64,000 bases of DNA. Source: Formosa sp. Hel1_31_208. Lineage in GTDB: Bacteria > Bacteroidota > Bacteroidia > Flavobacteriales > Flavobacteriaceae. A program made the position numbers and the translations under genes. Where the stretch lies: assembly GCF_900104785.1 (NCBI RefSeq), contig NZ_LT629733.1, forward strand, positions 528,501-592,500. The letters are read 5' to 3'. Below are positions 1,979 through 21,943 of this stretch, piece after piece; the first letter of the stretch is position 1, and every line of letters begins with the position of its first letter. The notes below the pieces were generated by a model. The model ran no database searches, was not told the DNA's origin, and saw only the letters and a program-made list of their open reading frames with translations.

Positions 1979-4402
1979 ATGAAAAAAATTACTTTATTGC
2001 TTTTTGTATTAAGCGCTTTCTGTGGTTTTTCACAAACACTAAATCAACCTGCTAACTGGCCTAATAATAATTGGTCTATTACAGGTAACTATATAGCAAC
2101 ATCAGATGCCTTTGAAGCGAATCCAACTGTGGATAACAGCTTTGCTTTTGACGACGATGATGCCGGAAACAATCATGCAGATACCATCGCGGCAGAATCT
2201 CCAACTATAAACCTAACAGCAGCTTCTGCCTCTGGAGAAAACTGGATTAGTGTGGGATCTAGCTATGTTTTTCATTCACTTGGAGGATTATTGCAATTGC
2301 AATATTGGGATGCTGATGCAAATAATTGGATTGTTTGGGGGTCAACCCTTTCGGGGACAACAACTAATGTTAACGATAATTTTTGCTCGGGAAATCCTGT
2401 AGGATTTACATCTGACATTTTAGATATTTCATCCTTTAGTGCAAACCAATTAACAAATTTTAGATATAGAATTTCATATGATGATTCACCCGTAGGTGGA
2501 TTTTGGGATTGGGGATTTTGTTTTCAGTCTCCAACAATAAGCTCACAAACAGCTCCAGCCTGTCCTAATATTACAAGCCTCTCTGCTTCTAATGTAAATA
2601 TGGATTCCGTTGAGCTATATTGGCAAGCTGGAAGTAGCGAAACAAGTTGGGAAGTTGTTTTACAAAGTCCTGGCCTAGGTATCCCTAGTGGTTCTGGAAC
2701 AGCAACCTCATCTAATAACCCATATTCAATCTCTAGTTTAACTCCGGGAACATCTTACGAAGTATATGTTAGAGGTTATTGTGGTGGAACAGACTACAGT
2801 AATTGGGTTGGTCCACTTACGTTTACAACCTTATCACCAGCAAGAGTAAACTTCATCACTGAACCTATGCCGATTAGCGGTTATGATTTAACGGTTGTTG
2901 ATATGAATGGTGATCACTTAGATGATATTGTTTCTGTAACCAATACCAACGTTAATATTCATTATCAATTAATGGGAGGTGGATTCAACGAAGTCAATAT
3001 TACAACACCCAATGCCAATTATATGCCTACATGGAGTATGGCTGCGGCAGATTATGACAGAAATGGTTATACGGATTTGCTTTATGGAAATGGCTCAGGT
3101 GTCACTTTTATGAGAGCAAATAATACAGGTACCGGATTTACTGAAAGCTCTGGTTCACAATACGTATTTTCTCAGAGATCCAATTTTGCAGACATTAATA
3201 ATGATGGGCACTTAGACGCCTTTGTATGTCATGATGTTGCCCCTAACGTCTATTATATCAATGATGGTTCGGGTAACTTAACCTTCTATCAGTCAAATGT
3301 GACTGCAGGAGCTCCTGTAAACCTAGGTGATTATCCTTCTGGAGGGAATTATGGGTCTATTTGGATTGATTATGACAATGATAGAGACTTAGACATGTTT
3401 ATCGCGAAATGTGGTGGTGAAACTGATAGAAGAAGAAATAATATGTTAACTAATAATGGAGATGGAACATATACTGAAAATGCTGCCGCTTTAGGATTAG
3501 ATGATCCTATGCAAACATGGTCATCATCATGGGGAGATTATGATAATGATGGTGATATGGATTTATTCGTTGGTGCAAGTTCAGGAGGTCATAAATTACT
3601 AAGAAATGATGGAAGCGGAACATTCGTCGATGTCACTGCTGGAGCTAATGTGAGTTCAGCACCTACTGGTCATGAAAACGTCAGCCATGACTTTGATAAT
3701 GATGGCTTTTTAGACATCGCCTGTAATGGGACAATTATGTATGGTAAAGGTGATATGACTTTTGAGGATTTAGATTCCAGTCAAATAGACTACAAAAATG
3801 GATCTTTTGGTGATCTAAATAACGATGGTTTCATTGACACCTATTACAATGGAATCTTATATAGAAATGCGACAACGCCAAACAACTGGATCAAAATAAA
3901 TACCGTTGGTGTAGTAAGCAATATTGATGGTATTGGAGCAAGAGTAGAATTGTATACAAACGCTGGTGTCCAGGTTAGAGATGTTAGAAGCGGTGAAGGT
4001 TTTGAGTATATGAGTACTATGAATACACACTTTGGAATTGGGACAGAAACCACAATTAATAGTATCGTAATCTACTGGCCTTCCGGAATTATTGATACAG
4101 TCAACAATCCAACAATAAACACGCCTATTGAAGTTGTTGAAGGCGCTACACTTAGCTTGGAAAACTCATTTGTGAATGATTTGGTCATCTATCCAAACCC
4201 AACGAAAGTTTTATTAAACATCTCATCAACTGATAATTTAACTGATGCAATTTACACGATATTTGATATCAATGGAAAACGCATTATGAATGCTAAATTA
4301 ACTCAGAACACAATTGATGTTAGTGAATTAACAACTGGAAATTACATTTTACGTATTGTTTCTGGAAACAGTATTAAAAGTCAAAAATTTATCAAGCAAT
4401 AA
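1979..4402 (+). CDS. Secreted FN3 + FG-GAP + ASPIC/UnbV protein with T9SS sorting domain
   Basis: 807 aa. A Sec signal peptide (MKKITLLLFVLSAFCGFSQ) fixes the ATG start. Residues ~20-190 form an N-terminal region resembling cleaved-adhesin-like beta modules. A fibronectin type III domain follows at ~193-285 (YEVYVRGYCGG...WVGPLTF). FG-GAP/VCBS repeats with Ca-loop motifs (DYDRNGYTD, DINNDGHLD, DYDNDGDMD, DLNNDGFID) span ~300-625, ASPIC/UnbV ~635-725, and a T9SS type A C-terminal domain starts at YPNPTKVLL. From the FG-GAP region onward it is highly similar to the upstream gene, with identical stretches such as RNGYTDLLYGNGSGVTF, which points to tandem duplication. It is likely a surface or secreted binding protein; the ligand is unknown. 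It has its own terminator, so it probably forms a separate transcription unit. Confidence 0.92.
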   Translation: MKKITLLLFVLSAFCGFSQTLNQPANWPNNNWSITGNYIATSDAFEANPTVDNSFAFDDDDAGNNHADTIAAESPTINLTAASASGENWISVGSSYVFHSLGGLLQLQYWDADANNWIVWGSTLSGTTTNVNDNFCSGNPVGFTSDILDISSFSANQLTNFRYRISYDDSPVGGFWDWGFCFQSPTISSQTAPACPNITSLSASNVNMDSVELYWQAGSSETSWEVVLQSPGLGIPSGSGTATSSNNPYSISSLTPGTSYEVYVRGYCGGTDYSNWVGPLTFTTLSPARVNFITEPMPISGYDLTVVDMNGDHLDDIVSVTNTNVNIHYQLMGGGFNEVNITTPNANYMPTWSMAAADYDRNGYTDLLYGNGSGVTFMRANNTGTGFTESSGSQYVFSQRSNFADINNDGHLDAFVCHDVAPNVYYINDGSGNLTFYQSNVTAGAPVNLGDYPSGGNYGSIWIDYDNDRDLDMFIAKCGGETDRRRNNMLTNNGDGTYTENAAALGLDDPMQTWSSSWGDYDNDGDMDLFVGASSGGHKLLRNDGSGTFVDVTAGANVSSAPTGHENVSHDFDNDGFLDIACNGTIMYGKGDMTFEDLDSSQIDYKNGSFGDLNNDGFIDTYYNGILYRNATTPNNWIKINTVGVVSNIDGIGARVELYTNAGVQVRDVRSGEGFEYMSTMNTHFGIGTETTINSIVIYWPSGIIDTVNNPTINTPIEVVEGATLSLENSFVNDLVIYPNPTKVLLNISSTDNLTDAIYTIFDINGKRIMNAKLTQNTIDVSELTTGNYILRIVSGNSIKSQKFIKQ

Positions 4403-4421
4403 ACAATCTTAATGATATATT

Positions 4422-4459
4422 AAAAAAGCTTCTACTTCTAAATGTAGAGGCTTTTTTTG
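4422..4459 (+). terminator. Rho-independent terminator after second FG-GAP gene
   Basis: AAAAAAGCTTCTAC / GTAGAGGCTTTTTT stem with an 8-nt loop and T run. Its layout is nearly the same as the terminator of the upstream paralogue. Confidence 0.88.
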
Positions 4460-4497
4460 TTTATTTTTGAATCACAACTTATTAAGAGATGCGCATT

Positions 4498-6735: not shown

Positions 6736-7647
6736 ATGCTCAATGTAAAAAACCTTAATTTCTCATATAATAAAACAGCTGTTTTAAATGACGTTTCCTT
6801 TCGCGTTCAACGAGGAGAAAACATAGCGATAATTGGCGAAAGCGGATCTGGAAAGAGTACCTTGCTCAAGGTGTTATATGGGGAATATGATCTAAATTCA
6901 GGGAGCATTCTATGGAACAACACAGAAATTCTAGGTCCGAAATATAATCTAGTTGTTGGTTATGACTTTATGAAGTATGTCGCTCAAGAATTTGATCTAA
7001 TGCCCTACATTTCAGTAGAAGAAAACGTAGGTAAATTTTTGTCTAATTTCTTTCCTGAAGAAAAACAACAACGCACAGCCGAGTTACTGGAAGTCGTCGA
7101 GCTTAAAGCATTTGCAAAAACCAAGGTGAAGAACTTGTCTGGCGGACAAAAACAACGTGTCGCACTTGCCAGAGCCTTAGCGAAACAACCCGAAATCATC
7201 TTACTCGACGAGCCCTTCAGCCATATAGATAATTTTAAAAAACAGTCGCTCCGAAGAAGTGTCTTTAAATATCTAAAAACTAAAAATATCACCTGTATTG
7301 TGGCTACTCATGATAAGGATGATGTGCTAGGATTTGCTGATCATATGATAGTATTGAATAATCAGAAAATTGAAGCATATGATACTCCACAACACTTATT
7401 TAGTCATCCAAAAACACCGTTAATCGCTTCTTTTTTTGGCCAATTCAATGTGATTGATGGTATTATCGTTTATGCACATCAACTCAAATTGGTAGAACAC
7501 TCTCAATTAAAAGTAAAGGTGGTCAAAAGCTATTTTAATGGCGCCACGTATTTAATTGAAGCAACTTTAAACGATGAAACTATCTTCTTTGAAAGTGATG
7601 CTGAACTTGCCAATAGTACCGCTGTTTTTTTAAAGCTTAACACATAA
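6736..7647 (+). CDS. ABC transporter ATP-binding protein
   Basis: 303 aa from the ATG at 6736; an in-frame upstream start at 6676 is rejected because it would run through the preceding terminator and the promoter. The nucleotide-binding domain has Walker A GESGSGKST, signature LSGGQKQR, Walker B IILLDEP and H-loop ATHD, in the right order over residues ~1-215. The C-terminal ~80 residues resemble the accessory beta domain of importer ATPases (MalK/PotA-like), so it is possibly an importer subunit. No permease or binding protein is adjacent, so the substrate is unknown. Its 3' end overlaps the convergent phosphopantetheinyl transferase gene by 11 bp. Confidence 0.88.
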   Translation: MLNVKNLNFSYNKTAVLNDVSFRVQRGENIAIIGESGSGKSTLLKVLYGEYDLNSGSILWNNTEILGPKYNLVVGYDFMKYVAQEFDLMPYISVEENVGKFLSNFFPEEKQQRTAELLEVVELKAFAKTKVKNLSGGQKQRVALARALAKQPEIILLDEPFSHIDNFKKQSLRRSVFKYLKTKNITCIVATHDKDDVLGFADHMIVLNNQKIEAYDTPQHLFSHPKTPLIASFFGQFNVIDGIIVYAHQLKLVEHSQLKVKVVKSYFNGATYLIEATLNDETIFFESDAELANSTAVFLKLNT

Positions 7648-8212
7648 CGTACCCAGAATATCGTCCGCAATGTGTCAGTGAAAATTGAAGAGGTAATTTT
7701 TGAAAATTGTTAAACACTTGTGGCACTCCAAATTTGGTTTTTCGGATATTTAATGCCTGATAATCCAGTTGTTCGCTCTGAGAGATTGTTCTTAACAATT
7801 TCTGTTTCAACTGGGAACTTTGTGAGGTATAGGAAGAGATTTCAGATTTAAAAATCGAACTGTATAAGGTTTTACATGATTCTGGCTGTGCAATCGTATA
7901 AACATAATCTTCAGTAATCGTTGAACGCGCATCATAGTGATTACTGTCAATTCTTACATCGCCTTTTTCTTCGGAAATGAGATTACACACCAAGCGTTTC
8001 GGATTAAAAAAAACCTCACCAAACTGCTGAACATGAACTTTATAAGCTGCTTCTTTCATACTCCATAGCAACCATACCATTTGGTGCTGATTTTCCGAAG
8101 TAAGAATTAATGCTTGTTCTTTTTGTGTAAACACTTTATCAAAAAAACGAGGTCGACGCCAATCGCATGTGTTCGACATGTGCTGTAAATCGACAATATC
8201 ATTACCTATCAT
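7637..8212 (-). CDS. 4'-phosphopantetheinyl transferase (Sfp-type)
   Basis: 191 aa. It transfers phosphopantetheine from CoA to an acyl carrier protein. Visible Sfp-superfamily motifs are GNDIVDL near the N-terminus (Mg-binding Asp) and WSMKEAAYK (W-x-x-KEA-x-x-K, Mg and CoA binding). It is shorter than Sfp (~224 aa) but within the range of stand-alone bacterial members. Its start overlaps the ACP stop by 4 nt (ATGA), so it is translationally coupled to what is almost certainly its substrate. It is the last gene of the polyketide/fatty acid operon. Being dedicated rather than AcpS-like suggests that the pathway has its own carrier protein. Confidence 0.9.
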   Translation of the reverse strand: MIGNDIVDLQHMSNTCDWRRPRFFDKVFTQKEQALILTSENQHQMVWLLWSMKEAAYKVHVQQFGEVFFNPKRLVCNLISEEKGDVRIDSNHYDARSTITEDYVYTIAQPESCKTLYSSIFKSEISSYTSQSSQLKQKLLRTISQSEQLDYQALNIRKTKFGVPQVFNNFQKLPLQFSLTHCGRYSGYVMC

Positions 8213-8463
8213 TTTTCAGCTAATTTCTCATTCACGATTTCCATTGCCGCCTTAACCGAAGTCATTTTTTCCATATCATCATTTTCAATTCTAACATCAA
8301 ACTCATCTTCTACATCTAAAATCACATCAACAAGATTTGCTGAATTAATTTTTAAATCATTGATGAAGTCGGTGTCTTCAGATAGGTTTTGAAACGCCTC
8401 CTCATCTTGAATATAAGGTTGAACAATCGTTTTAAGTTTGGCAATAAGTTCGTCTTTGGTCAT
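8209..8463 (-). CDS. Acyl carrier protein of the type III PKS operon
   Basis: 84 aa acidic helical protein. The phosphopantetheine Ser is Ser41 in KINSANLVDV, a divergent form of the usual DSLD motif, followed by the acidic helix II (LDVEDEFDV) typical of ACPs. The gene lies between the ketosynthase (3-nt gap) and the phosphopantetheinyl transferase (4-nt overlap). The divergent Ser motif and this context indicate a pathway-specific carrier rather than the housekeeping AcpP. It should hold the growing acyl chain for the KS, DH and ER of this operon and may hand it to the type III PKS; that last step is inference. Confidence 0.9.
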   Translation of the reverse strand: MTKDELIAKLKTIVQPYIQDEEAFQNLSEDTDFINDLKINSANLVDVILDVEDEFDVRIENDDMEKMTSVKAAMEIVNEKLAEK

Positions 8464-8466
8464 AGT

Positions 8467-9738
8467 TTATTTATATCTCTTAAAGATAATACATGCATTG
8501 ACATCGCCAAAACCAAAACTGGCTTTTGCGGCAATGTTTATTTCAGAATTTAAAAACTGTCTCACGATTTTATCTTCGGAAATTAAGGTTGATATCTCCG
8601 AATGAATATCTTCACAATTGATATTTGGAACTATAAATTGATCCTTTAACTGAAGTACAGTTGCCACACTTTCAATACTTCCAGCTGCCGCTAAGCAATG
8701 ACCAACCATAGATTTTAACGAATTAATATATGGGAAGTCTGCACCTTTTCTATTAAGTGCTGTGGTCCAATTTTCAATTTCTAAACTGTCTTTTGAAGTG
8801 GCTGTTAGATGTCCGTTAATAGTATCAATGTCTGATGCCAAAATATTAGCATTTACAATCGCATCTTTAATACAACGTTGAACAGCTTCGGGGTTTGGAG
8901 CCGTCATGGTTCCACCATCTCGTTGGCCACCTGAGTTGATGTTTCCGCCCAAAACCTCAGCATAAATTGTCGCATTTCGTTCTAATGCACTTTCCAAAGA
9001 TTCCAAAACTAAAGCACCTGCACCAGCGCCTGGAACAAAACCAGAGGCACTTGCGCTCATTGGTCTCGATCCCTGTTTTGGTGAATCATTATGTTTATAA
9101 GTCATCACTCGCATGGCATCAAATCCGCCCCAGATATAAGGTCCATCGTCACTACAACTTCCAACGAGCATGCGTTTTGCCTGACCATTTTTGATGCGTT
9201 CGTAACCCATTAAAATGGCTTCGGTACCTGTGGTGCATGCTGAGGAATTAGTTGTCACTTGATTACCCAGTCCTAAAATTCCGCCTAGAAATGCGCTAAT
9301 GCCGCTCGCCATAGTTTGAACGACTACAGTACTTCCTAAGCGTTTGACTTGTTTATCATCCAGCTTATAAATAGCTTCTCTAAATTTCTCTACACCAGAT
9401 GTTCCTGTTCCAAATACGGTTCCGCTATCAAAATCTAATGACGTCTCTGGACCAATTGAAAATCCCGCATCTTTCCATGCATCTATTCCCGCCATACAAC
9501 CATACAGAATTCCCGAACTATCGAAGCCTCTTAATTGCAAAGGGGTCAGATACTCCAGTTTTTTTTCTTCAGAAATTTGAGGGATTCCTCCTATGCAACA
9601 CGAAAAATTTAAATCGGCTAATTTTTGGTGAAATGTGATTCCCGAATTTCCAGCTTTAATCGCTTTTGAAAAAGCTTCAACTCCAACACCATTTGGAGCA
9701 ACAACACCTAAACCTGTTATAACAACTCTATTTTTCAT
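8467..9738 (-). CDS. Beta-ketoacyl-ACP synthase (FabF/KAS II-like)
   Basis: 423 aa thiolase-fold condensing enzyme. The complete Cys-His-His triad is present: Cys168 in SSACTTG, His310 in NGHLTATSKDS and His347 in SMVGHCLAAAG, with Lys342 also conserved. The C-terminal GFGDVNACIIF matches the FabF glycine-rich end. The Thr-rich NGHLTATS replaces the FabF NAHGTST. It elongates acyl-ACP by Claisen condensation with malonyl-ACP. An active-site Cys is present, so this is not a chain-length factor. Start and stop are coupled to the dehydratase (ATGA) and ACP (3-nt gap). Presence in this operon points to a specialised chain rather than bulk fatty acid synthesis. Confidence 0.92.
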   Translation of the reverse strand: MKNRVVITGLGVVAPNGVGVEAFSKAIKAGNSGITFHQKLADLNFSCCIGGIPQISEEKKLEYLTPLQLRGFDSSGILYGCMAGIDAWKDAGFSIGPETSLDFDSGTVFGTGTSGVEKFREAIYKLDDKQVKRLGSTVVVQTMASGISAFLGGILGLGNQVTTNSSACTTGTEAILMGYERIKNGQAKRMLVGSCSDDGPYIWGGFDAMRVMTYKHNDSPKQGSRPMSASASGFVPGAGAGALVLESLESALERNATIYAEVLGGNINSGGQRDGGTMTAPNPEAVQRCIKDAIVNANILASDIDTINGHLTATSKDSLEIENWTTALNRKGADFPYINSLKSMVGHCLAAAGSIESVATVLQLKDQFIVPNINCEDIHSEISTLISEDKIVRQFLNSEINIAAKASFGFGDVNACIIFKRYK

Positions 9739-10172
9739 GCTTTTATCATTCCTGAAATATGTCCACGACAGACCAATTCTTCTTTATCGTTAAATAATTT
9801 GACCTTACATTTTAACTTATTAAATCTGAAGACCTCTTTTTCTGAAACAACCGTGACTTTCTCACCTGGATAAACTGGTAAAAAGAAATCTACATGGCTA
9901 GAAGTTAAAGCAATTTGTAGTGCATTGTCATTTGTAATTTGATCTTTCAGCATATAAATCCCTAAACACACCAATCCAATTTGTGCCATACATTCTGTGA
10001 GTATTACACCAGGAGTAACTGCATTGTCTTTGAAATGGCCATGATAAAAATACTCATCTGGTTTAAATGTATAGTTCCCTGTTACGTTTTCAGCAGAAAT
10101 CTTAGTTAAATCATCAACAAACAGAAATGGCGGCTGATATGGCAATAGGGTTTTTATTTGGTTTGATGTCAT
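9735..10172 (-). CDS. 3-hydroxyacyl-ACP dehydratase (FabZ-like hotdog fold)
   Basis: 145 aa hotdog-fold protein with the FabZ core: YQPPFLFVDD near the N-terminus, catalytic His in YHGHFKDN and the acidic residue in PGVILTECMAQIG. It dehydrates 3-hydroxyacyl-ACP to the trans-2-enoyl form. It overlaps the ketosynthase by 4 nt and is 3 nt from the reductase gene, so it is part of the same operon. Together with the KS, ACP and reductase it gives a nearly complete elongation module; only a ketoreductase and malonyl transferase are missing, and could be shared with housekeeping FabG and FabD. Confidence 0.88.
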   Translation of the reverse strand: MTSNQIKTLLPYQPPFLFVDDLTKISAENVTGNYTFKPDEYFYHGHFKDNAVTPGVILTECMAQIGLVCLGIYMLKDQITNDNALQIALTSSHVDFFLPVYPGEKVTVVSEKEVFRFNKLKCKVKLFNDKEELVCRGHISGMIKA

Positions 10173-10175
10173 TTG

Positions 10176-10973
10176 TTAACTTATATGTTCGCCTCCGTCT
10201 ACAGGAATTACACAACCATTGATCCAACCCGCTTCATCTTTACTTAACAAGTAAACCACGTTGGCCACATCTTCAGGTAGTGTTAATCGTTTATTCGGAT
10301 TTCGTTTTAACGTATGTTCTATCATTTTATCGCTACCTGGAATCATACGCAAAGAAGCTGTATCTGTTACTCCGGCTTGGATACAATTGGCTTTTATTCC
10401 ATAAGGAGCAAACTCTAGAGCAATATTTCTAGTGATGGCTTCTAAGGTTGCTTTAGCGGCTGATACAGCTGCATAATTCTTCCATGCTTTAGTGTTTCCT
10501 TCGCTTGTAAAGCTTATAATCCTGGCATCTTCAGTAAATAATTTAGCTTGAAAAATTGCTTTAGCCCAATCATATAAGCTAATCGCCATCGCATGTATTG
10601 TCAAACTAAAATCATCGGTTTTCAATGTTGGGTTTTCATCATCTAACATGGGCTTTAGATTGCCTTTAGCGACACTATGCACTAAGGTTCTAATTCCAGC
10701 TCCTTCATTCAAGGTGATTTTCAATTCTGAAATAATCTGTTCACGTTTTTCAGCTTTAAACGCATCTACATTATAGGCTTTAAACTGCACACCTGTCGTC
10801 TTAATAATTTTAAATTCTTCGTTAATTTGCGCTTCTTGCGATCTAGAATTTCGGTGTATAATACAGATATTCATGCCGTGTAGTGCCAATTTTTTAGCAG
10901 TGGCTAAACCTAATCCACTAGAACCTCCCAATACGAGTGCCCAATAGCCCTTATTTTGAAATTCATTTACCAT
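10176..10973 (-). CDS. SDR-family enoyl-ACP reductase-like protein (FabL/FabI type)
   Basis: 265 aa Rossmann protein with the cofactor loop GGSSGLG at ~16-22. The catalytic spacing is Tyr167-x6-Lys174 (NYAAVSAAK), the arrangement of enoyl-ACP reductases FabI and FabL, not the Tyr-x3-Lys of ketoreductases such as FabG. The segment after it (ATLEAITRNIALEFAPYGI) reads much like FabL. I therefore favour NAD(P)H-dependent enoyl-ACP reduction over ketoreduction, though automated annotation may say only SDR. It overlaps the type III PKS by 7 nt. In context it would saturate the chain after the FabZ-like step, giving an alkyl starter. Confidence 0.82.
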   Translation of the reverse strand: MVNEFQNKGYWALVLGGSSGLGLATAKKLALHGMNICIIHRNSRSQEAQINEEFKIIKTTGVQFKAYNVDAFKAEKREQIISELKITLNEGAGIRTLVHSVAKGNLKPMLDDENPTLKTDDFSLTIHAMAISLYDWAKAIFQAKLFTEDARIISFTSEGNTKAWKNYAAVSAAKATLEAITRNIALEFAPYGIKANCIQAGVTDTASLRMIPGSDKMIEHTLKRNPNKRLTLPEDVANVVYLLSKDEAGWINGCVIPVDGGEHIS

Positions 10974-12019
10974 TCTAATAATATACGTTGTGCTGAAAAT
11001 CCAGGTCCAAAACTTAGCATTAGTCCTTTTTCTCCTTTTTTTAATTGCTTATCCATAAACCGCTCTAACACATATAACACTGTTGCGCTACTCATATTGC
11101 CATATAATTTAAGAACTTCTTTTGTGTCATCAATATTCTTGCCAAGAGATCCAAATAAGTCTTCAACGGTTTGAACGATTTTCTTACCTCCAGGATGAAA
11201 AATTAAATGATCAATAGCTTCAATTGTCATCCCATTTCGTTCTAAAAATGGGTGGACTATTTTAGGGAAATGTGCCGATATGGTTTCTGGAACGGCCTTA
11301 TCTAAAATCATTTGTAAACCTGTATTCACCAATTTAAAGCCCATCATGGTTTCAGCATCATAGAAATGATACATGGCCTCATCTAAAATTTTAGGGCCTA
11401 CTTCGTCTTCATAAGAGGATAAAATCACACTTGCTGCACCATCTCCAAAAATAGCAGCACTTACAATATTCACCATAGAATAATCATCAAGTTGAAAGGT
11501 TGCTGTTGGTGATTCAACCGCAATTACTGCCGCACGTTTATTAGGATTCGCTTTTAAAAAGTTCTTCGCATAAATAATTCCTGAAACTCCAGCCGCACAA
11601 CCCATTTCTGTGACAGGTAAACGCACAATATCTTGTTTCATTTTTAAACTATTGATGAGATACGCATCCATTGACGGAATCATAATTCCGGTACAACTGA
11701 CAGTTATGATATAATCAATGTCGCTGGCCGCAAGGTTGACTTTATTTAAAGCTTTCACCAAGGATTGTTCTGCTAATTTCACGACTTCTCGAGAATAGAT
11801 ATCGTTTTTCTCCTGGAATGATGTTTTGGTAAAAACCTCTTCAGCATCCATAATAGAATAACGTCTATCAACGCCTGCATTTTCAAAAAGTTTAATCACT
11901 TTTCGTTGAAATCTTTGGTCCTGATCAGCTAACCACAGATTTAGATAAGGCATAATATCTTTTGTTTCTCTAGTATGTTTCGGGAGTTGCTTTGCTACAC
12001 TTGTTATTTTTACACTCAT
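10967..12019 (-). CDS. Type III polyketide synthase (chalcone/stilbene synthase family)
   Basis: 350 aa from the ATG at 12019, which overlaps the methyltransferase stop as ATGA; an in-frame ATG at 12067 would overlap that gene by 52 nt and is less likely. The CHS triad is complete: Cys141 in TEMGCAAG, His275 in FHPGGKKIV and Asn308 in YGNMSSATV. FGDGAASV and the C-terminal SFGPGF loop are family features. Such enzymes extend an acyl starter with malonyl-CoA and cyclise it to pyrones or resorcinols. Next to its own ACP, KS, DH and ER it most likely uses a long alkyl starter, as in bacterial alkylpyrone/alkylresorcinol synthases. The product is not predictable from sequence alone. Confidence 0.93.
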   Translation of the reverse strand: MSVKITSVAKQLPKHTRETKDIMPYLNLWLADQDQRFQRKVIKLFENAGVDRRYSIMDAEEVFTKTSFQEKNDIYSREVVKLAEQSLVKALNKVNLAASDIDYIITVSCTGIMIPSMDAYLINSLKMKQDIVRLPVTEMGCAAGVSGIIYAKNFLKANPNKRAAVIAVESPTATFQLDDYSMVNIVSAAIFGDGAASVILSSYEDEVGPKILDEAMYHFYDAETMMGFKLVNTGLQMILDKAVPETISAHFPKIVHPFLERNGMTIEAIDHLIFHPGGKKIVQTVEDLFGSLGKNIDDTKEVLKLYGNMSSATVLYVLERFMDKQLKKGEKGLMLSFGPGFSAQRILLEW

Positions 12020-12735
12020 ATATTTTTTTGATTCAATATCCATTGGAAACGGAATGCCCATTTCCATCTAATCTGATAATTGGTCTTTAATTCTTTTGAA
12101 ATCGCCATTAATTCTTGTCTTTTAAATCCTCTCAATACTGATGTCAAACCATCCTCAACAATCGTTCTGTTTCTAATAGTTAGTGACAACAACTTAAATA
12201 AATAGTAGGCGAGTTTGTGGCGATGTAAATCATTTACAACGATGCCATATCGTGCTTTTTTTAATACTGGCTTCAAAAAAGACACCAATTCAACTTCTTT
12301 AAAATGATGTAAAAACAAAGTCGTTAAGACGACATCATAATCTAGTTTTTTAAACTCTTGAGAAAAAATATCAATAGTTCTAAATGTAATGTCTTCATAA
12401 TCAGCTGATGATGCGATGGCGTAATCTATAGTATGTTGATTTGCATCAATACCTACTAATTGAAATTGGAATCCATTTCGTTTCCCGTAGAGTGACACCT
12501 CTCTTAGAATGTCACCTCCACCGCAGCCCAAATCTACTATGGTTATAGGTTGAGATTTATCGTGATGTAATAAGACTTTTTGAAGCCCTTTAATGGTCAC
12601 TTTATTTCCACCTAACCACTGGTTAATTTTAGCTAGTTTATCTAAAGCATCATGTAGAATTGGACCACTATAATTCAAATCGTCCATAATCTCCTCTTTT
12701 TCGCTCCTATATTTTGTGCTAACTAATAAACTCAT
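12016..12735 (-). CDS. Class I SAM-dependent methyltransferase of the type III PKS operon
   Basis: 239 aa. Motif I VDLGCGGGDIL binds S-adenosylmethionine; an acidic residue follows in VGIDANQ and the motif II/III region (DYDVVLTTLFLHHF) resembles UbiE/Coq5-type enzymes. It is coupled by 4-nt overlaps both to the FAD oxidoreductase upstream and the PKS downstream. Position suggests O- or C-methylation of the polyketide product, comparable in logic (not in methyltransferase family) to the Bacillus bpsAB and Streptomyces srsABC gene sets. Substrate is inferred. Confidence 0.87.
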   Translation of the reverse strand: MSLLVSTKYRSEKEEIMDDLNYSGPILHDALDKLAKINQWLGGNKVTIKGLQKVLLHHDKSQPITIVDLGCGGGDILREVSLYGKRNGFQFQLVGIDANQHTIDYAIASSADYEDITFRTIDIFSQEFKKLDYDVVLTTLFLHHFKEVELVSFLKPVLKKARYGIVVNDLHRHKLAYYLFKLLSLTIRNRTIVEDGLTSVLRGFKRQELMAISKELKTNYQIRWKWAFRFQWILNQKNI

Positions 12736-13871
12736 TCTACCTGCATTACTTTACCATGTGTGCGCTTTATAATATAGGGTAACACCCATGGGGTCCATTT
12801 TAATACTTGCATTAAAGCTTCTGAAAGCTTAGGTTGATTAAATATATTCGCTACTAAGCGACCTGTAGATAATCGGGATTTAAACGTCGTATTCCATTCT
12901 CTAAGATACTCTTTTTCTAGTGCTTCACGACTCATAATTTCACCATTAAACCACTTTAAAATTAATAAGGACGCCATTTGCGCGCTTTTTAGCGCCATAC
13001 CCATTCCGTTACCACATAAGGGATGAATCAATGCGGCAGTATCTCCACACATGAGTATATGGTTTTCAACAGGTTTTTTATCTTCAAATGAAATTTGACT
13101 TATAGTAAGCGGCTCCTCGAAAAGCGGTGTTGTCGTGTCAAAAATGGATTTGAGGTATTGATTTTTAAATATAACATTCTGTTGAAAGTCATCAATATCT
13201 TTATACTTTTTAAATGATTTGAATGCTGTGATATAACATAAATTAATTCTATCGTCTTCTACTTTTGATACGCCGCAATAGCCTCCTTCAAAATTATGAA
13301 GAGCCACCAAATCATCTGGAAATTCTCCTTTAACATGAGTTTTCACAGCTAAATATGGCGATTTATTCTTTATAAACTGTCTATTCAGTTTAACATCCAA
13401 ATTTGAACGTTTACCAAAAGCGCCAATAACAATTTTAGATGTATAGCGCCTGCGATCTTTTGTAATTACGGTAAATAAATCGTTATCAAATTGAATGTCT
13501 TCTACCAAATCCTGAATTAAAACCGCACCGCAATCTGTCGCTTTCTTAACTAATGCATGATCAATACAAAACCGACTAATCCCAAAGCCACCAAGGGGTA
13601 AGGTTGCAGACACTAACTTATTATTCGTTGTAGATAGTTGAAATTTATCAATTTTTTTAGCGCCGAGATCAAACACATCGATTTCAAGAAAATTTAAATA
13701 TGGTAAGACTTCATTAGAGATGTATTCTCCACAAACCTTGTGCCTTGGATAGCTGTGTTTTTCGATGACTAAAACACTCAAGTTTTCCATTGATAAATGA
13801 ATAGCACTAGATAAACCAGCTAATCCACCACCAACAATAATCACATCAGGTTGTAATGTTTGCTGACTCAA
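12732..13871 (-). CDS. FAD-dependent oxidoreductase (geranylgeranyl reductase / aromatic hydroxylase-like)
   Basis: 379 aa. N-terminal dinucleotide-binding motif DVIIVGGGLAGLSSAIHLS, a KVCGEYIS segment as in geranylgeranyl-reductase-like flavoproteins, and the FAD ribityl motif CGDTAALIHPLCGNGMGMA at ~275-293. The start appears to be TTG at 13871, 4 nt after the YceI gene. A tailoring role on the polyketide is likely: ring hydroxylation or oxidation toward a quinone, or double-bond reduction. The family does both and I cannot choose. It belongs to the same operon by overlap. Confidence 0.86.
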   Translation of the reverse strand: MSQQTLQPDVIIVGGGLAGLSSAIHLSMENLSVLVIEKHSYPRHKVCGEYISNEVLPYLNFLEIDVFDLGAKKIDKFQLSTTNNKLVSATLPLGGFGISRFCIDHALVKKATDCGAVLIQDLVEDIQFDNDLFTVITKDRRRYTSKIVIGAFGKRSNLDVKLNRQFIKNKSPYLAVKTHVKGEFPDDLVALHNFEGGYCGVSKVEDDRINLCYITAFKSFKKYKDIDDFQQNVIFKNQYLKSIFDTTTPLFEEPLTISQISFEDKKPVENHILMCGDTAALIHPLCGNGMGMALKSAQMASLLILKWFNGEIMSREALEKEYLREWNTTFKSRLSTGRLVANIFNQPKLSEALMQVLKWTPWVLPYIIKRTHGKVMQVE

Positions 13872-13875
13872 GGCT

Positions 13876-14412
13876 CTAATTTTTAAATAGATAATTAACC
13901 CTAATCTTTACTGTATTTGACAAGATGAGACTCCCGCCTCCAACATCAAAATCTCGTCTATTTATTTCGAAATTGCTGCGTAATTTAAAACTATTAATAT
14001 CGCCAATAATCTCAATAGGAATCTTCATTGCTTTAGTAATCCCTTTGATGGTAAGGTTAACTAAAGCGTCATAGGTGGTTTCAGAAACTTTTTGAAATGA
14101 CGTTACTTTTAAAGTTATTTCAGGGTAGTTTTCCACATCAAAAAAATCATCTTTTAATAAATGCGCGTCGCGTTTCTTATTATCTGTATCAATCGAGCCT
14201 GTATCAACGGTCCCGTATAGTAACCAATTCGAACTATCGTCGCTGGTGAAATTAGTTGTAATTGAAGCTTTTTTGAAATAGCCATCCACATTAATACCGA
14301 GGTTTCTTATTTTGAAATCTACAGTAATTTCGGTGGTTTTAGTCTGTGCCAAGGAGGTCAACGAGACTGCTAAACTCACAATTAGCATTATAATCGAGTG
14401 TGTCTTTTTCAT
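13876..14412 (-). CDS. YceI-family periplasmic lipid-binding protein, first gene of PKS operon
   Basis: 178 aa with a Sec signal peptide (cleavage after SLTSLAQ). The remainder is a YceI-like beta barrel (lipocalin-like fold; residues such as SIDTDNKKRDAHLLKDDFF resemble the family's conserved core). Characterised YceI proteins bind long isoprenoids or amphipathic lipids. The gene is 4 nt upstream of the FAD oxidoreductase in the same direction, so the product may carry or sense the lipid made by the operon; this is inference. A -7-like box (TATCTTTA) lies 4 nt before the ATG and no other promoter-sized gap exists downstream, making this the likely operon leader. Confidence 0.85.
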   Translation of the reverse strand: MKKTHSIIMLIVSLAVSLTSLAQTKTTEITVDFKIRNLGINVDGYFKKASITTNFTSDDSSNWLLYGTVDTGSIDTDNKKRDAHLLKDDFFDVENYPEITLKVTSFQKVSETTYDALVNLTIKGITKAMKIPIEIIGDINSFKLRSNFEINRRDFDVGGGSLILSNTVKIRVNYLFKN

Positions 14413-14448: not shown

Positions 14449-14904
14449 CTAGATGACCTTGAGTATTTGAAAAGATTGATCTCTAAATTGAATCTTATCA
14501 CCTACCGTCTTACCTAAAAGTAATTGGGCAATTGGTGTTTGGGCTGAAATGGCAAAATAACTGGCACTATCTATTTCTAATTCTCCAGCGCTTATTGCTA
14601 TAAAATAATTGACTTTAGTTGTGATCACTACACTTCCCATTACAATATTTGTTGAAGTTGTATGGATATCAATTTTACGCAACGACTGATTTGTTTTCTG
14701 GATTTCTGCTAATTGTTGGCCTGCTTTTTCCCGTTCTAGCTGAATCATGGCGCGACCTGTTTCATGTTTATCCCCAGCTGAACTCTTCGTTTCCGATTGT
14801 AAGGCAGCCTGTAGTTCAGTAATCATCTTTTGAACAGCGATTAGCCGATCATCTAAAAAAAATTGGCACGCCTCAAATAATAATGGTTTTAGATTATTGC
14901 TCAT
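14449..14904 (-). CDS. GreA/GreB-like transcription elongation factor family protein
   Basis: About 151 aa. The N-terminal helical region includes GDKHETGRAMIQLEREKAGQQL, resembling the acidic tip and second helix of the Gre coiled coil. The C-terminal FKBP-like domain includes VMGSVVITTKVNYFIAIS, AQTPIAQLLLGKTVGDKI and FQILKVI. Starts at 14904 or 14910 (ATG) or 14913 (GTG) are possible; all overlap the mtgA stop. Gre proteins rescue backtracked RNA polymerase, but this is a divergent member. Such proteins are sometimes mislabelled 3-oxoacyl-ACP synthase in flavobacterial genomes. It is cotranscribed with mtgA. Confidence 0.72.
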   Translation of the reverse strand: MSNNLKPLLFEACQFFLDDRLIAVQKMITELQAALQSETKSSAGDKHETGRAMIQLEREKAGQQLAEIQKTNQSLRKIDIHTTSTNIVMGSVVITTKVNYFIAISAGELEIDSASYFAISAQTPIAQLLLGKTVGDKIQFRDQSFQILKVI

Positions 14905-15601
14905 TATCATCACGTTTAGGATATGTTAACGTTCCAAAATAATTCATTTGTTTTACAATCCATCCTTTTCGACCCTCAATATAAGTTGTAGTAGGGTTTG
15001 CTTTATATCTCAAAGGATTTGGCAAAATAGCCGCAATTGCAACGGCTTCATATCTTGACAAGTGACTTGCCGGTTTTTTAAACCAGTATCGTGCAGCCGC
15101 TTCTACACCATAGATTCCTGGACCCATTTCAATACTATTGAGATAGACTTCCATGATTCGTTCTTTGCTCCAAATAAGTTCTATAAGAAATGTAAAATAA
15201 GTCTCTAGACCTTTACGCAGCCAACTGCGGCCTGGCCATAAAAAAACATTTTTAGCAGTTTGTTGGCTAATTGTACTAGCGCCTTTTATAGACTTTCCTT
15301 TTTTATTATTTTCGTAAGCTTTTTCTATAGCTTTAATATCAAAACCGTGATGTTTTAAGAAAGTCTGATCTTCGCTACAAATCACTGCTAACTGCATATC
15401 TGTTGGGATTTGATCAATAGAAACCCAATTGTGTTCCCATTCTTTTTTATTGTCATCTGATTGTTCTATATTTCGAATCACCATTAAAGGCGTTATAGGC
15501 ACCGGAGCCCATTTAAAAACTACTACGAGGAGTATTGACGCTATAAAAACCCAAAATAGTGTTTTGAACAGCAATTTAAGTATGCCTCGAATAATTTTCA
15601 T
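14894..15601 (-). CDS. mtgA: Monofunctional biosynthetic peptidoglycan transglycosylase
   Basis: 235 aa, family GT51 only. One N-terminal transmembrane helix (~8-28) anchors it in the inner membrane. Conserved GT51 motifs: SEDQTFLKHHGFD with the catalytic Glu, GASTISQQTAKNVFLW, and KERIMEVYLNSIEMGPGIYGVEAAARYWF. It polymerises lipid II into glycan strands without a transpeptidase domain. Its ATG overlaps the stop of the FAD oxidoreductase upstream (ATGA). Confidence 0.94.
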   Translation of the reverse strand: MKIIRGILKLLFKTLFWVFIASILLVVVFKWAPVPITPLMVIRNIEQSDDNKKEWEHNWVSIDQIPTDMQLAVICSEDQTFLKHHGFDIKAIEKAYENNKKGKSIKGASTISQQTAKNVFLWPGRSWLRKGLETYFTFLIELIWSKERIMEVYLNSIEMGPGIYGVEAAARYWFKKPASHLSRYEAVAIAAILPNPLRYKANPTTTYIEGRKGWIVKQMNYFGTLTYPKRDDNEQ

Positions 15602-16877: not shown

Positions 16878-18227
16878 TTAATCTTCTTCTGGTTGTATTT
16901 CGAAATCCTCCATGAACTTAGTGGTGTAGTTCCCAGCTAAATAATCTGGATGCTCCATTAGTTGTCTATGGAATGGAATAGTTGTTTTGATCCCTTCAAT
17001 AACGAATTCATCTAATGCACGTTTCATTTTGTTAATCGCTTCTTCACGTGTTTGTGCAGTGGTAATCAACTTTGCAATCATAGAATCATAATTTGGCGGA
17101 ATCACGTAACCTGCATACACGTGTGTATCTAGTCTCACACCATGGCCTCCTGGTGCATGCAATGTTGTAATCCGTCCTGGTGATGGTCTAAATTCGTTAA
17201 ATGGATCTTCGGCATTGATACGACACTCTATAGAATGTAGTTGTGGTAAATAATTTTTTCCTGAAATTGGCACGCCTGCAGCCACTAAAATCTGTTCGCG
17301 AATTAAATCAAAATCAATAACTTGTTCTGTTATTGGGTGCTCTACTTGGATACGTGTATTCATTTCCATAAAGTAGAAATTACGATGTTTATCTACTAAA
17401 AACTCTACGGTTCCAGCACCTTCGTATTTAATAAACTCGGCAGCTTTGACAGCAGCTTTACCCATTTTATCACGTAACGCTTTCGTCATAAATGGCGAAG
17501 GAACTTCTTCGGTTAATTTTTGATGACGACGCTGTATAGAGCAATCGCGTTCAGATAAATGACAGGCTCTACCTGTAGAATCACCTACAATTTGAATTTC
17601 AATATGACGCGGTTCTTCAATGAGTTTTTCCATGTACATACCATCATTTCCAAAGGCTGCTTTAGATTCTTGTCTGGCAGAATCCCAAGCATCTTTTAAA
17701 TCTTCAGGTTTCCAAACCGCACGCATTCCTTTTCCTCCACCTCCTGCAGTTGCTTTAAGCATAACTGGATATCCTGTTTCTTTTGCTAGTTTTTCACACT
17801 CTTTAAAATCTGCTATAATACCATCACTACCTGGAACACATGGAACGCCAGCCGCTTTCATAGTTGCTTTAGCAGTCGCTTTATCTCCCATTTTAGAAAT
17901 CATCTCTTCTGAAGCTCCAATAAATTTAATATTATGCTCTTCACAGATTTTAGAAAACTTAGCGTTTTCTGATAAAAACCCATAACCGGGATGAATTGCA
18001 TCAGCATTTGTAATTTCTGCTGCAGCTATTACAGATGATATTTTAAGATATGATTCACTACTTGATGGTGGGCCAATACAAACGGCTTCATCTGCAAACT
18101 TAACGTGCAAGCTTTCGGCATCTGCTGTTGAATATATAGCAACCGTTTTGATACCCATCTCTTTACAAGTTCTTATAACACGAAGTGCTATTTCACCTCT
18201 ATTGGCAATCAATATTTTTTTAAACAT
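16878..18227 (-). CDS. accC: Acetyl-CoA carboxylase, biotin carboxylase subunit
   Basis: 449 aa, the normal AccC length. It carries the biotin carboxylase N-domain ([23 protein letters not shown]), the ATP-grasp Gly-rich loop [10 protein letters not shown], the Mg site [14 protein letters not shown] and the C-terminal domain ([16 protein letters not shown]). It carboxylates biotin on AccB using bicarbonate and ATP, the first half-reaction of malonyl-CoA formation. It follows fabH and accB, and its product malonyl-CoA would feed both housekeeping lipids and the type III PKS about 3 kb away. Confidence 0.97.
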
Positions 18228-18262
18228 AACTTCTTTTTTAAAAATTCATTTTCCAAGCATCA

Positions 18263-18302
18263 AATTCCAATGATATAAATTTGAAATTTGTGGATTGGAA
18301 TT
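18263..18302. other. Inverted repeat in the accB-accC spacer
   Basis: AATTCCAAT (18263-18271) and ATTGGAATT (18294-18302) can form a 9-bp stem in the 83-bp gap between accB and accC. It lacks a T run, so it could be an RNA-processing or attenuating hairpin rather than a terminator. Confidence 0.4.
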
Positions 18303-18310
18303 TTCAATTG

Positions 18311-18796
18311 TTATGACGGATCTACCAAGAACAATGGTTGATCAAATTCTACTGGAGATGAATCATCAACCAAAATCTTAACGATTTTTCCTGACACTTC
18401 AGATTCTATTTCATTGAATAACTTCATAGCTTCAATAACACATAATACATCACCTTCTCCTATTGAAGAACCAACCTCAACAAAAACGGGTTTATCTGGA
18501 GATGGTTTACGGTAAAATGTTCCAATTATTGGTGATTTGATTGTAATATATTTTGAGTCTTCAGATGCTTCTGATGTCTCTGCTGCGGGAGCTGCTGCCG
18601 CTGAAGAAGGGGCTGTAGGCATTGCCTGTGCTACTGGAGCATTCATTGGTATTTGTTGAACATAAGTGGTTGATTCCCCTTTGTCTTCTGAACCAGTTTT
18701 AATGGTGATTTTAATATCATCCATTTCTAATTTAACCTCACTTGCTCCTGATTTGGCCACAAATTTGATTAAGTTTTGAATTTCCTTAATATCCAT
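18311..18796 (-). CDS. accB: Acetyl-CoA carboxylase, biotin carboxyl carrier protein
   Basis: 161 aa. N-terminal domain (~1-40), an Ala/Pro-rich flexible linker (~50-78) and the C-terminal biotinyl domain with Lys125 in the hallmark EAMKLFNEI. It carries the carboxybiotin between AccC and the carboxyltransferase. Spaced 83 bp before accC and 37 bp after fabH on the same strand, an arrangement common in Bacteroidetes. Confidence 0.97.
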
Positions 18797-18833
18797 AATT
18801 ATTAGTCGTTTTAATTTGTTAGTTAAAAGTCGG

Positions 18834-19829
18834 TTAGGAATTATAAGCCCAAGTTAAATAAATTGAGCCCCAAGTAAATCCGCCTCCAAAGGCTGCGAAT
18901 ATTATTTTATCACCTTTTTTTAGTTGCGATTCGTAATCGTGTAATAATAGAGGTAAAGTCGCTGAAGTTGTATTTCCATATTTATGGATATTCATCATTA
19001 CCTTTTCTGATGGCAAAGACACTCTATTAGCAGTGGCTTCTATAATTCGCTTATTGGCTTGATGTGCTGCCAACCACGAGATATCATCATTGGTTAAGTT
19101 ATTGCGTTTTAATATACGTTCGGTTACATCTGCCATATTAAAAACGGCATTTTTAAATACTGTTTTTCCTTCTTGAAAAACGTAGTGTTTCCCTTCGTTA
19201 AATGTTTCTGAAGTTATTGGATATGAAGATCCACCATATGTTGCTTGAAGAAACTCTCTTCCTTCACCATTACTTCTTAGTAACTCATCTTGTAACCCCA
19301 GTCCTTCGGTATTAGGCTCGAACAAAACAGCTCCGGCTCCATCACCAAAAATAATGCATGTCGCTCGGTCTTTATAGTTGATAAAAGAAGAGTTTTTATC
19401 GGCTCCAATAAGTAATACGTTTTTGTATTTTCCCGATTCTATATAGCTTGACGCAACAGACATCCCAAAGAGAAAGCTAGAACATGCCGCTTCTAAATCA
19501 AATGAAAACGCGTTAGTAGCCCCTATACTAGTTGCAGTAAAAGCCGCGGTTGAGGCAGCTTTCATATCTGGTGTTGCAGTTGCAACAATTACTAGTTCTA
19601 TATCTTTGGGGTCAATTCCTTTTTTATTAATAAGGTCTTGTGCCGCTTTTATAGCTAAAAAAGACGTCCCTTTACCTACTTCTTTGAGGATTCGACGTTC
19701 TTTAATACCAGTTCTAGTGGTAATCCATTCGTCATTAGTATCGACCATGGTCTCCAAAATTTGGTTGGTCAATTTATATTCAGGTAAATAAGCTCCCACT
19801 CCCGTGATTGCAGCTGTGATTTTACTCAT
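18834..19829 (-). CDS. fabH: Beta-ketoacyl-ACP synthase III
   Basis: 331 aa. The Cys-His-Asn triad is intact: Cys116 in [11 protein letters not shown], His256 in AAHQANKRI and Asn286 in HKYGNTTSA; the C-terminal [11 protein letters not shown] is typical. It condenses an acyl-CoA with malonyl-ACP to start fatty acid synthesis; branched-chain starters are common in this phylum but cannot be read from the sequence. Genetic neighbours rpmF/DUF177 upstream and accBC downstream fit the housekeeping role and separate it from the FabF-like enzyme of the PKS operon. A tandem 20-bp repeat lies just upstream. Confidence 0.96.
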
Positions 19830-19841
19830 ACAATATTTTTA

Positions 19842-19879
19842 AAAAATCGTCAAAAAAAGACAAAAATCGTCAAAAAAAG
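19842..19879. repeat. Two tandem 18-bp direct repeats upstream of fabH
   Basis: AAAAATCGTCAAAAAAAG occurs at 19842-19859 and 19862-19879 (period 20), 13 bp from the fabH start. On the minus strand each copy contains TTTTTTTGACGA, so the repeat could duplicate a -33 TTTG element or a regulator site. Confidence 0.7.
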
Positions 19880-19959
19880 GTAAAATTTTACTGAAACTAC
19901 TAATTTTTGAACGAATATATCGCAAATTAAGTTGTTTTTAAGACTTAGAGAAATTAAAC

Positions 19960-19990
19960 ATAAAAAAAACGCCCAGTGATGAGCGTTTTA
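19960..19990 (-). terminator. Rho-independent terminator of rpmF
   Basis: AAAACGC / GCGTTTT stem followed on the minus strand by eight T residues, 20 nt after rpmF. It separates DUF177-rpmF from fabH. Confidence 0.78.
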
Positions 19991-20009
19991 TTATATGCGT
20001 GCATAATAC

Positions 20010-20213
20010 TTATGCTACATTTTCTTCAGTTACAGAATTGTCGATTAATACTTGACCTCTGTAATACAATTTACCTTCGTGCCAGTGCGCTCTGTGGTAT
20101 AAGTGTGGTTCTCCTGTAGTAGGACACGTAGCGATAGTTGGAACTGCTGCCTTATAATGCGTTCTTCTCTTATCTCTTCTGGTTCTAGATATTTTTCTTT
20201 TAGGATGTGCCAT
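20010..20213 (-). CDS. rpmF: 50S ribosomal protein L32
   Basis: 67 aa basic protein with the L32 signature [20 protein letters not shown] and a central [19 protein letters not shown]. It is a structural part of the large ribosomal subunit near the peptidyl transferase region. Only one Cys remains of the zinc-binding set found in some L32 forms, so it is the zinc-independent type. It lies 8 bp after the DUF177 gene, a pairing conserved across bacteria. Confidence 0.97.
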
Positions 20214-20221
20214 TTTATATG

Positions 20222-20776
20222 TTATTTATCCGTTAATAGTTTTTTTAATGTATTCCAACGAGGATCAATGTCCTCTGATGTTTGTTCTTTTTCTTCTAAG
20301 TCTTTTGGACTTAATTCTTCTAGCTTTCTGAGTATGTCTGAATCTAATGTGCCGTCTTCAACCCCTGGATGAATGCGTTTTGCAGGCATTGACAATATAA
20401 TTAATTCATAAATATATTGTGCCACGTTGATTTCGTATTCACCATGAGGAATGATTAAAATATCTTCAAACTCATCATTATAAGCATCACCAAATTTTAC
20501 CACTAAGTTAAATTCGCCTTTAACTTTTTGGTTATAAGGTTCGTTCGTGATGTCACAATTGACGTTTACCTGTCCATTGATTTTAAAATGTAGCTCTAAC
20601 AAGGTTGTTTTCTTTTCAAGAAGCAAGCTTGCTTTAACATTTACATCATTAAAATCTTCATACTCAAAATATTCAAAGAACTTTTTATCAATTTGATAAT
20701 CAAAATGATGCTTTTCTGCCTTGAGACCAACAAACGGTATCGTATATTCCTTTAAGGGCTTCATCATCGCATTCAT
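20222..20776 (-). CDS. DUF177 / YceD-family protein
   Basis: 184 aa. The central part ([31 protein letters not shown]...VVKFGD) and the acidic C-terminus with [15 protein letters not shown] match the DUF177 family. YceD homologues are linked to 23S rRNA accumulation in plants and E. coli and are almost always located upstream of rpmF, as here. Alternative ATG codons at 20767 and 20764 are possible. Confidence 0.88.
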
Positions 20777-20836
20777 TTTGAGCCTGCAAATATATAAATT
20801 TTAATTAATTAAACTACGGTTATAAACAAAAAATGT

Positions 20837-21883: not shown

Positions 21884-21904
21884 TAAGATGTTTTCTATTG
21901 TGCG

Positions 21905-21912
21905 TAATTTTG
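21905..21912 (+). promoter_or_regulatory. -7 box of ribE promoter
   Basis: TAATTTTG matches TAnnTTTG exactly, 31 nt before the ribE ATG. It lies 5 bp from the opposing pdxA -7 box. Confidence 0.6.
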
Positions 21913-21917
21913 TATTT

Positions 21918-21926
21918 GCAAATTTA
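21918..21926 (-). promoter_or_regulatory. -7 box of pdxA promoter
   Basis: On the minus strand TAAATTTGC is an exact TAnnTTTGC match, about 34 nt before the pdxA ATG at 21883. It supports the shorter pdxA start. Confidence 0.62.
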
Positions 21927-21943
21927 ACCAATTATTCGACACT

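Follow-up and report, generated by a model that had tools for sequence, protein, structure and literature searches.

Organization of the operon

The stretch of DNA analysed here, referred to as the window, comprises 64,000 nucleotides (nt) of Formosa sp. Hel1_31_208 (contig NZ_LT629733.1, positions 528,501 to 592,500 of the forward strand; positions below are counted from its first letter). It contains an operon of nine genes, all on the minus strand and running from 14412 to 7637, in which a type III polyketide synthase (PKS) is combined with discrete proteins of a type II fatty acid synthase (FAS). All open reading frames (ORFs) were found where the initial annotation had placed them, and its description of a tight nine-gene block was confirmed by the ORFs, by Pfam matches and by junctions of -7 to +4 nt. 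The first gene encodes a YceI-family protein of 178 amino acids (aa) (13876..14412; PF04264, 103.5 bits) with a signal-like N-terminal stretch, as judged by eye; its solved relatives are YceI/polyisoprenoid-binding proteins. It is followed by a flavin adenine dinucleotide (FAD)-dependent oxidoreductase of the geranylgeranyl-reductase/monooxygenase type with a TTG start (379 aa; 12732..13871; TIGR02032, 106 bits), an S-adenosylmethionine (SAM) methyltransferase (MT) of the PRK06202 kind (239 aa; 12016..12735; NF004851, 144.8 bits) and the type III PKS (350 aa; 10967..12019). Next come a short-chain dehydrogenase/reductase (SDR) of the FabL-like enoyl-ACP reductase type (265 aa; 10176..10973), a FabZ-like dehydratase (DH; 145 aa; 9735..10172; PF07977), a FabF-like ketosynthase (KS; 423 aa; 8467..9738), a divergent acyl carrier protein (ACP; 84 aa; 8209..8463; PF00550, 24.7 bits) and a 4'-phosphopantetheinyl transferase (PPTase; 191 aa; 7637..8212; PF01648, 55.7 bits). 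The domains ACPS, PP-binding, ketoacyl-synt N and C, FabA-like, adh_short_C2, Chal_sti_synt N and C, Methyltransf_31, DAO/FAD_binding_3 and YceI all scored above the Pfam gathering score.

In the order of transcription, the genes are joined by a gap of 4 nt (YceI-FAD), overlaps of 4, 4 and 7 nt (FAD-MT, MT-PKS, PKS-SDR), a gap of 3 nt (SDR-DH), an overlap of 4 nt (DH-KS), a gap of 3 nt (KS-ACP) and an overlap of 4 nt (ACP-PPTase). The MT-PKS overlap depends on the start of the PKS at 12019. The longest ORF extends to 12067 (366 aa). However, a methionine stands at the position of 12019 in 86 of 90 aligned rows, and the PKS therefore very likely begins there; 73 of the 90 rows have nothing ahead of it. 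At its 3' end the PPTase gene shares 11 nt with a convergent gene for an ABC-transporter ATPase. The TTTG/TAnnTTTG motif, which we take to be a promoter pattern, was counted 7 times in the window, where 6.1 were expected, and no promoter could be assigned. Promoter-like and terminator-like signals (49 vs 44.7 and 11 vs 7.7 in shuffles, respectively) gave no site that we would claim.

Conservation of the gene set and of catalytic residues

Conservation was followed in the best 80 of 230 matches confirmed by scanning genome contigs. The titles of these relatives name Flavobacteriaceae genera, whose family membership we presume, or the family itself, except for two contigs of one metagenome-assembled genome called Algicola. 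Presence was scored by tblastn, and the counts are lower bounds because contig ends cut several loci. The PKS and the MT were found in all 80 relatives, the FAD gene in at least 79, DH in at least 77, KS in at least 75, ACP in at least 72 and PPTase in at least 71. The strand and order of the operon genes found were kept in 80/80, and FAD, MT, PKS, DH, KS, ACP and PPTase occurred all together in 70/80, which argues against a chance grouping. Identity to the window proteins was 78-91% for the PKS and 30-64% for the PPTase. The proposal that all nine genes are members thus stands for these seven, whereas SDR (at least 65/80) and YceI (at least 39/80) are not core members. In three loci (L042, L069, L077) YceI sits after the PPTase gene. 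Some loci have extra short ORFs between operon genes, for example a GIY-YIG-like one or a 186-aa ORF without a Pfam match. At locus L125, the FAD gene is immediately preceded by lipocalin-like and OmpA-family (OmpA/glycine-zipper) genes (3287-4475, plus strand), which take the place of YceI. ORFs of similar size occupy this place in further deeper relatives (L119, L123, L126, L127); the domain scan covered L125.

The catalytic residues are intact and the full gene set is present. The Cys-His-Asn triad of the PKS (C157, H291 and N324 in the 366-aa numbering), noted as complete at the outset, was invariant in 90/90 aligned rows, the window included. The same holds for C168, H310 and H347 of the KS (82 rows), H46 and E60 of the DH (84), Y167 and K174 of the SDR (72), the phosphopantetheine serine S41 of the ACP (71) and D5, E54 and K58 of the PPTase (75). 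For these counts we excluded rows with a length below 0.8 or above 1.4 times that of the window protein and rows with at most 30% identity. Loci L135 and L136 do not enter set A1 or the PKS tree.

Joint inheritance of PKS and KS

Co-inheritance was analysed in 299 evenly drawn Flavobacteriaceae genomes. An orthologue of the PKS (E of at most 1e-100, at least 55% identity) was found in 103 of them, the best match of the next genome being 5.5e-49. A KS match (E 1e-80) was found in 101 genomes, all within the 103. Two genomes (G525, G673) had the PKS only, none had the KS only and 196 had neither (Fisher p 1e-78; since the counts are uncorrected for relatedness, such p values overstate independence). 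Where both genes lay on the same contig, 95 of 98 pairs were less than 4 kb apart; three further pairs lay on different contigs. One genome (G537:C1:841123-842162), counted here among the carriers of the PKS, has a match divided into two pieces, each in an open frame of its own; the gene may be broken or the assembly faulty.

Further support for a functional unit is provided by two genomes in which the operon is split. In the single contig of G571, FAD-MT-PKS-SDR (2.94 Mb) and DH-KS-ACP (2.58 Mb) are separated by 355 kb, and in G531 the same halves lie on two contigs. No PPTase match was detected in these split-operon stretches at E 1e-4. Both halves were retained after the split, which suggests that they act together and are not merely hitchhiking. 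PKS and KS are thus inherited together, and the unit consists of FAD-MT-PKS and DH-KS-ACP-PPTase with SDR and YceI as optional genes. Across the phylum, 33 of 395 sampled genomes had a close PKS, namely 30 of 41 members of the family and 3 of 354 others. The three carriers from outside the family (G249, G080, G138) also have FAD, MT, DH, KS, ACP and PPTase genes; in G249 an SDR lies between PKS and DH, while G080 and G138 are without it.

A second set of fatty acid synthesis proteins

The FAS proteins of the operon scored under the curated NCBIfam cut-offs for FabF, FabZ, FabL and ACP models and are therefore regarded as divergent paralogues. The KS reached 268 bits with the fabF model (cut-off 493.75), and the DH remained below the cut-off with 60-68 bits for FabZ models. 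The genome has one PF00195 match and one other FabF-like KS match, 33% identical to the operon KS. There are two FabZ-like domains, of which the one outside the operon is over the cut-off, and two PF01648 PPTase matches, one of them that of the operon. As initially reported, the operon encodes neither a ketoreductase (KR) nor a malonyl transferase. Ten FabG-model matches were found in the genome, one over the cut-off and outside the operon, with the window SDR among the other nine; a single FabD lies outside the operon. The operon thus carries second copies beside housekeeping genes, and sharing of the KR and malonyl transfer steps is feasible, in line with the initial proposal.

That the SDR is enoyl-reductase-like was borne out. 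FabL is its best NCBIfam model (NF005975, 147.7 bits; cut-off 328, not reached) and its best solved structure (3oic), and the FabL-type Y-x6-K motif (Y167-x6-K174), seen in the alignment to 3oic, was present in 72/72 rows of relatives and window. In the family sample an SDR match (E 1e-50) occurred in 96 genomes, comprising 94 of the 103 PKS genomes and two congeneric genomes without the PKS. Nine operon-bearing genomes are without it (G021, G107, G226, G431, G454, G494, G559, G565, G593), and a dedicated enoyl reductase (ER) is thus not obligatory. In a search of 19 genomes, seven with the SDR in the operon carried exactly one match, adjoining the PKS, and in the 12 whose operon is without it no SDR match was found anywhere at E 1e-30. 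These searches indicate two forms of the pathway, with and without SDR. The two congeneric genomes (G424 and G637, genus g201) encode an SDR 64-65% identical to that of the window and have no close PKS or KS match; this SDR is possibly a relic or has another use.

The PKS and its tailoring enzymes

The PKS has the chalcone synthase fold and the catalytic triad of type III PKSs. In a 28-row tree its relatives form a clade of their own (support 100/99), a separate subfamily; this tree has long branches for CylI, Pks11 and other rows, and ArsB, SrsA, PkqA and HidC were not included. Among solved structures, as far as Foldseek finds them, Pks11 ranked first and CylI second, both above tetrahydroxynaphthalene synthase (THNS). 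Pks11 is also the best sequence match among solved proteins, at about 29% identity. The product of Pks11 is methyl-branched alkylpyrones and that of CylI a resorcinol. For ArsB and ArsC, an excerpt of PMC9927152 reports that Trp281 versus Gly partly decides between resorcinol and pyrone. The best NCBIfam model of the PKS is DpgA (175.8 bits; cut-off 425). DpgA is also the best model of ten other type III PKSs tried, all of which match it alike (142-272 bits); the match is therefore not a specific hint, and an identity as DpgA was dropped.

The MT scored below the cut-off of NF004851 (144.8 vs 243 bits). The MT of another Bacteroidota FAD-MT-type III PKS cluster (L137) reached 270 bits with this model and is 26% identical to that of the window over 217 columns. 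The FAD protein is likewise below the cut-off of its best model, that of the geranylgeranyl reductase family (106 vs 158.8 bits), and has lower matches to the QhpG monooxygenase (73.5 bits) and to UbiH-type hydroxylases (66 bits). The corresponding protein of L137 is of the UbiH/PRK08244 type and barely aligns with it. Six other Bacteroidota type III PKSs with scanned neighbours, including L130 and L132, each have an ICMT-family partner beside them, which presumably is of the BpsB type.

Proposed pathway and alternatives

We lean towards a pathway in which the FAS module feeds the PKS, and MT and FAD enzyme then give a methylated, possibly oxidised phenolic lipid. The PPTase would activate the dedicated ACP, on which an acyl chain would be elongated by the dedicated KS and DH together with shared FabG and FabD. 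Enoyl reduction may be carried out by the FabL-like SDR where it is present, and otherwise by a housekeeping enoyl reductase. The PKS would use the acyl chain as starter, add malonyl units and cyclise the product to an alkylresorcinol-like ring, which, by analogy with the srs, pkq and hid systems, may be methylated by the MT and oxidised or hydroxylated by the FAD enzyme. Oxidation is given as possible because the nearest family of the FAD protein is that of geranylgeranyl reductases; the enzyme may hydroxylate, oxidise or reduce its substrate. YceI may be an optional lipid-binding accessory; its presence in about half of the relatives weakens the role of leader and carrier that it had been given. 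This pathway is supported by the co-occurrence of PKS and KS, the retention of both halves in split genomes, the conserved residues and the position of the FAS proteins as paralogues beside housekeeping genes. It is further supported by the Pks11 and CylI structures, the MT model shared with L137 and the precedents of hid, Planctomycetota operons, pkq, srs, CylI and Gcs. Several observations weigh against it. The operon is without KR, the SDR is absent from 9/103 operon-bearing genomes, and both split genomes keep the SDR with the PKS half and not with DH-KS-ACP, a location that fits an enoyl reductase of the acyl chain less well. Moreover, the other type III PKSs compared from Bacteroidota share just 27-36% identity with the PKS, its clade stands weakly next to the malonyl-primed THNS in the 28-row tree (86/77), and its Cys125 is shared with THNS Cys106.

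The weak link to THNS and the shared Cys, together with the SDR remaining beside the PKS, could also be read as signs of the reverse order, which we consider unlikely. In that case a malonyl-primed, THNS-like PKS would first make an aromatic head, as thioester or free phenol, and KS-DH-(ER)-ACP would build or join a chain onto it, yielding an aryl lipid or an aryl polyene-like compound. With no KR and, in some genomes, no ER, the DH-KS-ACP module resembles polyene systems. An aromatic residue, F244, aligns with THNS Tyr224 (numbering offset 8, via the catalytic Cys, which we take to be Cys138 of THNS; Cys106 and Tyr224 likewise follow the THNS numbering as we assume it). An earlier assignment of Y233 to this position was withdrawn, as Y233 aligns with THNS Y213. 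However, Pks11 has a Trp at the position of F244, and a Cys at position 125 is also found in L128, L134 and L137. By structure Pks11 and CylI outrank THNS, the DpgA match is unspecific, and the operon contains neither a ligase nor an acyltransferase to load or join the head. Moreover, Gcs, which lies within the THNS clade, uses acyl-ACP according to an excerpt of PMC8086630. Of the initial interpretation, which is supported in part, the assignment to lipid-forming PKSs is tentative: the structural ranking favours Pks11 and CylI, and the tree does not place the clade firmly among lipid synthases.

As a special case of the chain-first pathway favoured above, the product may be an alkyl benzoquinone or hydroquinone that serves respiration as a second electron carrier or protects the membrane as an antioxidant. 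PKS, MT and FAD enzyme are the kind of set known from pkq and srs (excerpt of PMC9927152), the QhpG and UbiH-type matches of the FAD protein would suit such a product, and the high identity of the PKS across the best 80 relatives may point to a physiological role. Yet the best model of the FAD protein is that of the geranylgeranyl reductase family, in contrast to the UbiH/PRK08244 type of L137, and the operon is present in just 103 of 299 genomes; we regard a quinone as possible but rather unlikely. A flexirubin- or dialkylresorcinol-type pigment pathway, or a substitute for one, is very improbable. Flexirubin and dialkylresorcinol pathways contain KS, DH, ACP and PPTase sets as well, but DarB was not matched in this genome at E 1e-100. 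DarB (over cut-off) occurred in 52 of the 299 genomes and was not mutually exclusive with the PKS (both in 29, PKS only in 74, DarB only in 23, neither in 173), and the substitute reading was rejected on these grounds. DarB was found in 7 of the 9 SDR-less genomes vs 22 of the 94 with SDR (p 0.002, uncorrected for relatedness).

A bolder proposal, which we put forward tentatively and would sooner doubt than affirm, is that Flavobacteriaceae have a so far unnamed class of quinone or hydroquinone lipids in their membranes. A type III PKS supplied by a type II module of its own would make them, the two being inherited together in roughly one third of the sampled genomes. Chain saturation would differ between the two forms of the unit, depending on whether a dedicated enoyl reductase is present. 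Gram-negative bacteria of this kind use menaquinone, and the product would then be a second, polyketide-derived lipid quinone, with consequences for how widespread marine bacteria respire and cope with oxidative stress. With the unit defined by co-inheritance, an anonymous class of Flavobacteriaceae type III PKS clusters becomes a testable pathway, in which the naturally occurring forms with SDR, without SDR and with a split operon offer test cases for the direction of supply between the modules.

Genomic surroundings

Upstream of the operon and on its strand, a gene for a short GreA/GreB C-terminal-like protein (14449-14913; PF01272 25.1 bits, cut-off 26.9 not reached) lies 36 nt from YceI, followed by genes for a monofunctional transglycosylase and a DAO-family oxidoreductase. 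Beyond these is a codirectional run of pdxA, yceD, the ribosomal L32 gene, a fabH-like gene (18834-19829), an accB-like biotin carrier gene (18311-18796) and accC (16878-18227). The run spans 16878-21931 on the minus strand, with the operon downstream, and is regarded as context outside the operon itself. The accC gene was found in 37 of the 80 relatives, in all 37 upstream on the operon strand. The GreA-like gene was found in 67 of the 80, either upstream or downstream of the operon.

Comparison with known systems

Clusters with a type III PKS are frequent among Flavobacteriaceae (PMC7440613) and make up 10.74% of the predicted biosynthetic clusters in 2,680 genomes of the family (PMC10734526); the excerpts of both surveys leave the product unnamed. 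A literature search covering few subscription journals gave no description of the operon or its product in the titles and abstract openings among the matches listed.

Several characterized systems share parts of the arrangement. In ArsABCD of Azotobacter vinelandii, dedicated fatty acid machinery likewise stands beside type III PKS genes for phenolic lipids (excerpt of PMC3098273), but it consists of type I FAS/PKS genes with two type III PKSs, whereas here discrete type II proteins accompany one PKS, an MT and an FAD enzyme. CylI, of the cylindrocyclophane type I/III hybrid, receives an ACP-built chain; the available part of PMC8086630, which also covers hierridins, describes acyl-ACP as substrate of both CylI and Gcs. 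The CylI system has type I PKS modules, a halogenase and the alkylating enzyme CylK, none of which is found here. Pks11 of Mycobacterium tuberculosis, the best match among solved proteins by sequence and structure, is nevertheless distant. THNS/RppA of Streptomyces, the weak sister in the tree with one active-site Cys in common, makes tetrahydroxynaphthalene without an alkyl chain. The ICMT-type partner of Bacillus BpsAB is not present in the operon, the MT of which is of the Methyltransf_31/PRK06202 type.

The closest likeness is to srsABC of Streptomyces griseus, pkqABC of Mycobacterium smegmatis and the cyanobacterial hierridin genes hidABC, in which PKS, MT and an oxidoreductase or hydroxylase are adjacent in the same way. 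The comparison with known clusters suggested at the outset thus led to this core, present with PKS and MT in 80/80 and FAD in 79/80 loci, and not to flexirubin. From the pkq and srs operons, polyketide quinones (alkylquinones) are made, as an excerpt of PMC9927152 states. In Planctomycetota, relatives of hid are arranged as MT-oxidoreductase-PKS operons whose PKSs make alkylresorcinols, and one of these operons shares a gene for a lipid/isoprenoid-binding protein (excerpt of PMC10896814). The FAD enzyme of the present operon is geranylgeranyl-reductase-like, with lower scores for monooxygenase models, and in this it appears to differ from those of srs, pkq and hid. These are described as three-gene operons, whereas here DH, KS, ACP, PPTase and usually the ER-like SDR are found as well. 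The PKS/MT/oxidoreductase core is therefore of a known kind, and the novelty of the operon is the dedicated DH-KS-ACP-PPTase module added to it.

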